Positions 61,812 through 63,593 of a DNA stretch of 64,000 nt are shown piece by piece. The stretch is from Xenophilus sp. E41 (GTDB lineage: Bacteria; Pseudomonadota; Gammaproteobacteria; Burkholderiales; Burkholderiaceae_C): positions 1 to 64,000 of the forward strand of contig NZ_QPIB01000042.1 of the NCBI RefSeq assembly GCF_003671765.1, given 5' to 3'. The notes beneath the pieces were generated by a model. It saw nothing but the letters and a program-made list of their open reading frames with translations, was not told where the DNA came from and did not search any database. The translations under genes and the position numbers were made by a program. Each line of letters opens with the position of its first letter. Within the stretch, counting starts at the first letter, position 1.

Positions 61812-61996
61812 GCCGCCGGAACGCCGACGAGGAGCCGCCAGCGGCAAGCACCGGCCGCTACGCGCCTACGATCCACCCTTCGCCCGACCGCGCCGCCTCG
61901 CGCGCGCGCCTCATCGAGCTCATCGCCCGCCAGCTCGTTCATCAGACCCTTCAGGAGCGCAATGCGAGTCTGCCTGTACGCCCGATACAGCACTGA
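61808..61996 (+). CDS. Small protein overlapping the recombinase start
   Basis: 62 aa, ATGA overlap with the previous gene and 35-bp overlap with the recombinase gene. Basic, with a C-terminal helix ('DRAASRARLIELIARQLVHQ'). Small proteins next to serine integrases can be directionality factors; nothing in the sequence proves that here. Confidence 0.55.
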   Translation: MSRRNADEEPPAASTGRYAPTIHPSPDRAASRARLIELIARQLVHQTLQERNASLPVRPIQH

Positions 61997-63560
61997 CCAC
62001 CAGTCCCAGAACAGCGTGGCCGACCAGCTGCGCGCCGGCCGCGAGCGCGCCGCACGCGAGGGCTGGGCCATCGCGATGGTTCATGCCGACGAAGGCATCA
62101 GCGGCGCCACGCCCGTGGCGCTGCGCCAAGGCGGCAAGGCGCTGCTCGCCGACGCACTGGCCGATCGCTTCGATGTGCTGATCTGCGAAGGCCTCGACCG
62201 GATCACCCGCGACCTAGCCGAGCAGGAGCGCACCGTGAAGCGCCTGGAGCACCGCGGCATCCGGATCATCGGCACCGCAGACGGCTACGACACGCAGGCC
62301 GCCGGCCGCAAGGTGATGCGCATCGCTCGAGGCCTGGTGAACGAGCTCTATCTCGACGACCTGCGCAAGAAGACGCACCGCGGCCTGCAGGGCCAGTTCG
62401 AGCGCGGCATGGCCGCCGGCGGTCGCACCTACGGCTACACCAGCGTGCCGGTGGAAGGCGGGAGCCGGGTCGAGATCGACGAAGAGCAGGCGCAGCACGT
62501 GCGCTGGATTTACGAGCAGGTAGCTGCCGGCGCCACGCTGCGCAGCATCGTGCACACCCTCAACGCCCGCGGCGTGCCGAGCCCGCGCGGCAATGGCTGG
62601 GCCGCGAGCGCGCTGGTGGGCAACGCCACCATGGGCGACGGCCTGCTCAACAATGAGCTCTACATCGGCCGCGTCGTGTGGAACCGCCGCCAGTGGATGA
62701 AAGACCCCGACACCGGCAAGCGCCTGCCGGTGGCCCGCCCGCGCGAAGAGTGGATGGTGCGCGAGCAGCCCGAGCTGCGCATCATCGAACAGGCGCTGTG
62801 GGAGCAGACGCGCCCCGCAAGGCGCCAGCAGCATCGCCACGCGGGCTATCGCACCCACGGCACCCTGTTCGGCGGCCTGCTGCGCTGTGACGCGTGCGGC
62901 GGCCCGATCATCGCGATCAACGGCACCCGCTACGGATGCAGCGCCCACAAGGACAAGGGCCCGACGGCCTGCCCCAACGCCGTCACCTGGCGCCGCACCG
63001 ATGTGGACCAGCGCCTGCTGGCCGAGCTGAGAGAGGATCTGCTGAGCCCGTCCGCTCTGGCCGAGCTGCAGACCGTCGTGCGCACACTGTTGGCAGAGCT
63101 TGACGGCGACCATGACCGCGCGCAAGCAGCGGCCCGGCGCCGCTCCGCTGAGCTGGACCGAGAGATACAGCGCATCGTCGACGCCATCGTCACCATCGGC
63201 GCCAGCGAGGCCCTGGCCACGCGCCTGCGCGCCGCCGAGCTGGAGCGCAAGGCTCTGCACGAGACGATGGAAGTCAAGCCGCCGGTGGGCACCACCGTGG
63301 CAGACGTGACGGCGCGCTACCGCCAGTCGATCATGAACCTGAAGGAGACGCTGACCGGCGACGCCATCGAGGTTCGCGAGGCCCGCAAGGTCATCGCCGA
63401 CCTGCTGGGCTCCATCACGCTGCTGCGTGACGCTGACACCGGCCAGAGCTGGGCCAGAATGAAGAATCCCGCCGAGCAACTGCTGATTGCAGCCGCTGGC
63501 GGGAGTTCTATGGGAGTGGTTGCGCGAGCAAGATTTGAACTTGCGACCTTTGGGTTATGA
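61962..63560 (+). CDS. Large serine recombinase (phage integrase)
   Basis: 532 aa in the lysogen; AGGAG before ATG 61962. N-terminal resolvase domain (1-145) with catalytic S10 ('YARYSTDH'), 'CEGLDRITRDLAEQERTVKR'; recombinase domain (about 165-275, 'GYTSVPVEGGSR', 'LNARGVPSPRGNGW', 'ELYIGRVVWNRRQW'); zinc ribbon with C309/C312 ('CDACGG') and 'CSAHKDKGPTACPN'; coiled coil about 375-435. Integrates the phage. The last about 10 codons lie inside the tRNA-fMet gene on the other strand. In the excised phage the frame would continue into the attL-side tail, giving about 541 aa. Confidence 0.93.
   Translation: MRVCLYARYSTDHQSQNSVADQLRAGRERAAREGWAIAMVHADEGISGATPVALRQGGKALLADALADRFDVLICEGLDRITRDLAEQERTVKRLEHRGIRIIGTADGYDTQAAGRKVMRIARGLVNELYLDDLRKKTHRGLQGQFERGMAAGGRTYGYTSVPVEGGSRVEIDEEQAQHVRWIYEQVAAGATLRSIVHTLNARGVPSPRGNGWAASALVGNATMGDGLLNNELYIGRVVWNRRQWMKDPDTGKRLPVARPREEWMVREQPELRIIEQALWEQTRPARRQQHRHAGYRTHGTLFGGLLRCDACGGPIIAINGTRYGCSAHKDKGPTACPNAVTWRRTDVDQRLLAELREDLLSPSALAELQTVVRTLLAELDGDHDRAQAAARRRSAELDREIQRIVDAIVTIGASEALATRLRAAELERKALHETMEVKPPVGTTVADVTARYRQSIMNLKETLTGDAIEVREARKVIADLLGSITLLRDADTGQSWARMKNPAEQLLIAAAGGSSMGVVARARFELATFGL
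63517..63528. other. attR: 12-bp right attachment repeat
   Basis: TGGTTGCGCGAG, identical to 21988-21999. On the minus strand it is the CCA tail, discriminator and acceptor stem of tRNA-fMet, so the tRNA sequence stays complete after insertion. Confidence 0.85.
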
Positions 63561-63593
63561 GCCCAACGAGCTACCAGGCTGCTCCATCGCGCG
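63517..63593 (-). tRNA. tRNA-fMet (initiator, anticodon CAT), prophage attachment gene
   Basis: 77 nt including an encoded CCA. Initiator hallmarks are visible: a C1-A72 mismatch (5' CGCGCGA against 3' end TCGCGCA) and three G-C pairs in the anticodon stem around CTCATAA. D-loop AGCCTGGTA and T-loop TTCAAAT are normal. It lies 19 bp after rplQ on the same strand; a TATACT at 63605-63610 may be its -10. Its 3' flank is now prophage DNA. Confidence 0.95.

Follow-up and report, generated by a model that had tools for sequence, protein, structure and literature searches.

The phage integrated in the window (the whole analysed stretch of 64,000 nucleotides from Xenophilus sp. E41) has its attachment site inside the last codons of its own serine recombinase gene. 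Because attP lies in the 3′ end of the integrase gene, each integration or excision would rewrite the C-terminus of the enzyme. Comparison with related phages suggests that the phage-coded tail bears signs of protein-level selection across the family, i.e. it looks coding, while the ending supplied by the tRNA is not kept across frames, and integration would thus strip a conserved basic tail. We give roughly even chances to the full reading, in which every integration or excision rewrites the integrase C-terminus, the lost tail is needed by the free-phage enzyme and integration leaves the lysogen with a tail-less one. The features concerned are collected in Table 1; all protein endings are quoted up to the stop codon.

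Table 1. Features of the integrated phage and its attachment sites in the window.
Feature	Position	Strand	Description	Basis
attL core TGGTTGCGCGAG	21988..21999		direct repeat of 63517-63528; inferred crossover dinucleotide AG 21998-21999	
Displaced phage-coded integrase tail GGFGHERLVAIPWKSARRR	21999..22058	+	in the recombinase frame only in attP	
Prophage body	22000..63516		contractile-tail phage, ~41.5 kb	10 selected ORFs, the recombinase among them, scanned with PHROGs
Large serine recombinase (integrase), lysogen form	61962..63560	+	532 aa, ends VVARARFELATFGL	ORF, Pfam, PHROG phrog_95
Phage P arm of attR	63488..63516	+	codes the linker preceding the core	
attR core TGGTTGCGCGAG	63517..63528		direct repeat of 21988-21999; inferred crossover dinucleotide AG 63527-63528	
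tRNA-Met, anticodon CAT	63517..63593	-	integration target; 3′ end is the att core	ARAGORN

PHROG matches in the prophage include the terminase large subunit, major head protein, tail sheath, tape measure, baseplate proteins and the integrase; a DNA methyltransferase-like gene (56440-58236, phrog_116) lies between the structural genes and the integrase. On the host side, the left neighbour is presumably a RidA-like gene, and the right neighbour, beside the tRNA-Met(CAT), we take to be an L17-like ribosomal gene. The initial annotation had named the target tRNA-fMet; ARAGORN calls tRNA-Met, and the "fMet", which would make the tRNA one of initiator type, comes from reading the sequence itself. 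The recombinase contains Resolvase (PF00239), Recombinase (PF07508) and zinc ribbon (Zn_ribbon_recom, PF13408) domains, each above the Pfam cut-off, and all three are retained in the lysogen ORF. When its own genome was searched with this protein, one other place was hit, a distant one on another contig (G000 C37:128939-129931), which holds a second serine recombinase of 30% identity. The tyrosine recombinase domain PF00589 had no match on the window's contig (C10) and we therefore rejected another integrase as the agent, small unrecognised integrases being possible given that PHROGs were run on 10 ORFs.

The recombinase frame crosses the right 12-bp repeat and stops inside the tRNA (TGA, 63558-63560), as annotated at the outset, giving a lysogen protein whose ending, VAR-ARFELATFGL, is read from antisense tRNA. 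The earlier count of about ten antisense residues was too low, since the 14 last codons lie in tRNA sequence; ten is the number of last residues by which lysogen and free form are distinguished. Behind the left repeat this frame runs on into phage DNA for 19 residues, GGFGHERLVAIPWKSARRR, with its stop at 22056-22058. Joining attL to attR yields a predicted free-phage ending of VAR-GGFGHERLVAIPWKSARRR. Set against attR, this rebuilt attP junction bears out the proposal that lysogen and free phage encode different C-termini and that the excised form would regain the basic tail. The corresponding tail in the relative G432 is GGYGQEKLVSIPNSRRRP, and the arm beside Variovorax paradoxus 110B reads VARGGYGQEKLVSIPNSRRRP compared with VARGGFGHERLVAIPWKSARRR in the window.

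The position of the crossover within or at the common 12 bp follows from three empty sites and from the edge of homology in relatives. Three species of the same genus (L007, L009 and L010) carry an empty site in which host DNA left of 21988 joins the tRNA at the base equivalent to 63517; their left host flank is contiguous with the tRNA from 20484 or 20509 to 22011 of the window. This comparison covered 29 loci on one strand only, many of them in opposite orientation or too distant. Moreover, the tRNA-rplQ stretch matched 58 of 60 related genomes, and the right-flank homology over the tRNA begins at query base 18, equal to 63517, in most matching relatives and 1 to 10 bases earlier in a few (e.g. 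G004, G005, G018 and G033). The empty sites and the homology edge at 63517 rule out a chance 12-bp repeat. Thus the junction falls within the two repeats, as had been assumed, and once rebuilt it joins the two frames. The position of the crossover dinucleotide was inferred from the inverted-repeat centre of the family attP sites; in G444, whose tail is 37 residues long, attL and attR mismatch at core base 11, which that dinucleotide should disallow.

Scans of viral and genome contigs returned at least 128 distinct loci (one viral-contig scan contributing the best 80 of 90). We examined 95 of the 128 together with 9 from genome searches, 104 in all, the 33 left out being mostly the weakest. A recognisable core was present in 85 of the 104, followed by tRNA-like sequence in 33, cut directly after the core in 33, followed by other DNA in 18 and unassigned in one. 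The 19 without a core by script are partial or frameshifted loci, loci in opposite orientation or loci with a different site; in five of them (L052, L157, L158, L160 and L161) the junction can be recognised by eye. For 31 of the 33 tRNA-adjacent loci ARAGORN placed a tRNA-Met where the gene ends, and in 31/31 of these the recombinase frame enters the tRNA and ends there. These 31 are not as many independent cases because near copies are included, among them L045, whose recombinase is 100% identical to that of the window. The 33 loci use frame A (VAGxGFEPTTFGL type) in 22 cases, frame B (GCGGRI type) in 10 and frame C in one, a partial gene (L067). The resulting tRNA endings are near-neutral and vary with the frame, from GFEPTTFGL to RI.

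The initial annotation had called for a search of related phages for the attP-form ending, and this search recovered the same arrangement: an in-frame phage-coded tail is found in 21 free-type loci and in 14 rebuilt attP junctions. The free-type loci come from viral contigs in 20 cases and from a MAG contig in one (L061), 19 of the 21 being non-redundant; examples are VAGARFVHRRRIRLR in L061 and, in frame B, GCGDSISIPEHHRIRLR in L144. ARAGORN found a tRNA in none of the 22 free-type loci scanned, i.e. the 21 and L145, a doubtful locus kept out of the arm set. For the rebuilt junctions, attL was sought in 18 lysogen genomes and taken in 13, chosen by eye among the matches listed; among the 18, G439 and G446 gave no convincing attL and none was assigned in G211, G301 and G029. 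With the window included, a stop occurs within 120 bases in 14/14 rebuilt junctions, the arm of G442 being readable also as a frame-A tail. One pair appears in both states, L115 ending LVAGAGFVRYLPFRIK and L106 ending LVAGAGFEPTTFGL with 509/512 body residues identical, subject to the caveat that L115 may belong to a tandem prophage. Two such recombinases occur together in L115 and L137 (viral contig 3300005563_001252) and in L151 and L104 (assembly number 2551306416), one of each two at a tRNA-type end and the other followed by other DNA. Most likely two prophages stand in tandem at a single att site in each case, the inner recombinase taking its tail from the neighbouring phage. The suspected tandem junctions L115, L151 and L155, with the near copies L158 and L160, were removed from the stricter tail test below (30 tails).

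Several tests bear on whether the tail is coding. In the first length test, 18/19 free arms and 12/14 attL arms gave tails of 13-24 residues, where shuffles averaged 4.1 and 3.3; counts in the other two frames were 3/19 and 1/19 (free) and 2/14 and 6/14 (attL). In the stricter test, where only DNA beyond +25 was shuffled, 27/30 tails ended 13-24 residues from the core, against a shuffle mean of 7.6 and a maximum of 15 in 2000. The mean net charge of 33 tails is +3.15, compared with +0.59 for the other two frames. An alternation near the stop, picked after inspection of the tails, places basic residues at -3 and -5 and hydrophobic ones at -2 and -4 in 58/120 positions, against 35.9 (sd 4.9); 0/20000 residue shuffles reach this value and the opposite phase scores 29. 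It is present in both frame groups, A (22 tails, P=0.0004) and B (8 tails, P=0.0048). Mapped on a tree of 58 recombinases, the reading frame across the core requires 9 changes, and well-supported branches force at least 5 of them. Between loci in different frames the length and character of the phage tail stay the same, and the tRNA ending drops from nine to two residues after the core. The conserved item is therefore the phage tail, since a change of frame alters the tRNA ending and not the length or character of the tail. Among 12 close pairs, third codon positions changed most in 7 and tied in 5, on too few codons to weigh by themselves. A motif [RK]-hydrophobic-x-hydrophobic was rejected as main evidence: the attL set reached 8/14 (P=0.0024) but the free, or discovery, set was weak (9/19, residue-shuffle P=0.037), and in frame B the motif was absent as a signal (2/8, P=0.53). 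Ending in ARRR, the tail of the window matches the alternation at 1/4 positions; in both att arms and tail, the window agrees with the family patterns more poorly than the majority do.

The best solved relative of the enzyme is the SPbeta integrase (YokA; 9dxh, 9dxd), which aligns over profile positions 44-490 of 528, and the tail follows a linker beyond this last part that aligns with solved integrases. A short basic strand in that place might hold DNA or another subunit. We envisage that an infecting phage would make the tailed enzyme, the tail serving as an accessory element that, while attP x attB recombination takes place, most likely touches DNA or a further subunit of the integrase. After integration the gene would make the tail-less enzyme only, which would be poor at integration, lowering re-integration, and could still excise with a directionality factor; excision would bring back the tailed gene. 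It is plausible that the tail swap biases the direction of recombination, and the recurrence of a similar free-virus tail in related viruses hints at a built-in state switch. More tentatively, and with limited confidence, we suggest that the tailed form encoded by attP DNA integrates while the tail-less form encoded by attR DNA excises without re-integrating, so that the state of the DNA in which the gene lies would share with a directionality factor in setting the direction.

In 31 attP sites the P and P′ arms are inverted copies of each other about a centre that falls between core bases 10 and 11 (295 matches at that centre, against a mean of 153.6 and sd of 29.6 over 40 centres), and the first tail codons therefore lie in a probable binding site and are constrained also as attP DNA. 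Arms match better within phages (8.3/15) than across phages (5.5; 28 sites, 0/5000 permutations), the window's 6/15 being close to the cross-pair mean of 5.5. The whole tail could then be a functionless by-product, its frame open because P′ is kept as an integrase-bound half-site, as the matched arms of the 31 sites would allow. Passages of PMC3783163 give the attP half-site of the LI integrase as 25 bp. Stops lie beyond that distance in 35/35 arms, 32.5 to 102.5 bases from the centre. Moreover, the length clustering is lost when the DNA beyond +25 alone is shuffled, and the effect is present in two reading frames of the same kind of DNA site. We consider a DNA-only constraint improbable for these reasons. 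A tail selected merely as a harmless or stabilising ending, which the tRNA ending would replace equally well in either state and with no switch, is unlikely too, if less strongly so. It would agree with the open lysogen forms at 31/31 ARAGORN-confirmed loci, from which neither ending obviously ruins the enzyme; against it, the free tails have charge and alternation in common and the tRNA endings are near-neutral, so that the two are unlike.

A switch of stability, in which one ending is a degradation tag and integration alters the amount of integrase and not its activity, has a precedent. According to passages of PMC9262239 and PMC9934374, BPs-type mycobacteriophages have attP inside the repressor gene and attB in a tRNA gene, and integration replaces the C-terminus of the product, removing an ssrA-like repressor tag that ends in AA; the integrase is also tagged. 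Such endings recur in RR1-A-type relatives. The recombinase of GenBank phage RR1-A ends in a phage-type tail, VVAGERFEQSPQIILGRFVA, that of GenBank phage Mae-JY30 (L221) ends VVAEVRSNPSPPFRFGVIAA, and L222, 88% identical to RR1-A, has the tRNA-type ending MVAGEGLEPPTRGL; RR1-A and L222 thus make a further two-state pair, and public records show both kinds of ending on closely related recombinases. In 29 of 31 RR1-A-type loci that were read, the ending was tRNA-type in 23 (L238 in another frame), phage-type in two (L226 and L230, ~35 residues) and unclear in four (L229, L241, L242 and L249); ARAGORN found tRNA-Met in 8 of the 15 scanned. The tails of Mae-JY30 (VIAA) and L230 (ELAA) resemble ssrA-type degradation tags, and because these two end in AA the stability effect stands as the main alternative. 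However, RR1-A itself ends FVA, and of 33 window-related tails 5 have a final A and none a final AA, the ending in the window being ARRR. We therefore hold a stability switch to be quite unlikely for this family and return to a tail needed for integration as the preferred reading. Two further points concern the RR1-A-type loci. In L222-L250 the tRNA-Met sequence differs from that of the window, yet it is mostly entered in the same frame (VAxxGFEPPTxGL). RR1-A-like prophages of S. meliloti are reported, in passages of PMC11476347, to lie mainly in a tRNA-Thr gene and to have almost only tyrosine integrases, so the phage resemblance to RR1-A does not extend to the integration site.

Among known systems, BPs-type immunity and the archaeal suicidal integrases come closest in kind. 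As in BPs, attP lies in a phage regulatory gene, attB overlaps a tRNA gene, the C-terminus is exchanged and the form of the protein is tied to the state of the DNA. In contrast to BPs, where attP is in an immunity repressor gene accompanied by a tyrosine integrase and an ssrA-like degradation tag is lost, attP here is in a serine integrase gene and the tail that the window loses is basic, with no resemblance to ssrA. SSV-type integrases, in the passages of PMC8371274, likewise have attP inside the integrase gene, so that integration alters it; those tyrosine recombinases are split into inactive parts, whereas here a serine recombinase changes only its last residues and keeps its domains intact. 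Large serine integrases (SPbeta YokA, 9dxh and 9dxd; A118/LI, 4kis, and passages of PMC3783163) share the domains; the inverted half-sites of their attP, two around a short crossover, have a clear counterpart across the 31 sites and a weak one in the window, and G444 conflicts with the inferred crossover bases. A difference is the target, here a tRNA gene, which passages of PMC9262239 link to tyrosine integrases in mycobacteriophages. Within the open-licence literature consulted as titles, abstract beginnings and passages (including PMC10083194 and PMC6109161), no serine integrase with attP in its frame and an exchanged C-terminus is described, and by these sources the arrangement adds an unreported form to the known theme of a regulatory gene that contains attP. 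As tools for genome writing, serine integrases are in wide use, and why they act in one direction only is a key question. Where every integration alters the C-terminus of the enzyme, as in this natural family, matched enzyme pairs would be at hand for testing whether that part affects direction or stability. This also suggests that integrases of this family cloned from prophage sequence would lack the free-phage ending.

Lastly, a few loci depart from the common layout. In L111 (11540-11580), L044, L237 and L243 the tRNA-like sequence stops just past the anticodon and ARAGORN finds no complete tRNA, perhaps reflecting a second element at the anticodon loop or a phage with half a tRNA. The junction of G086 (L044) is less certain because its attR lacks a complete tRNA. 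In L191, from Azotobacter vinelandii CA, a second degenerate copy of the core lies 35 bases before attL (~13296 and 13331, reverse strand) and is perhaps a remnant of an earlier integration.
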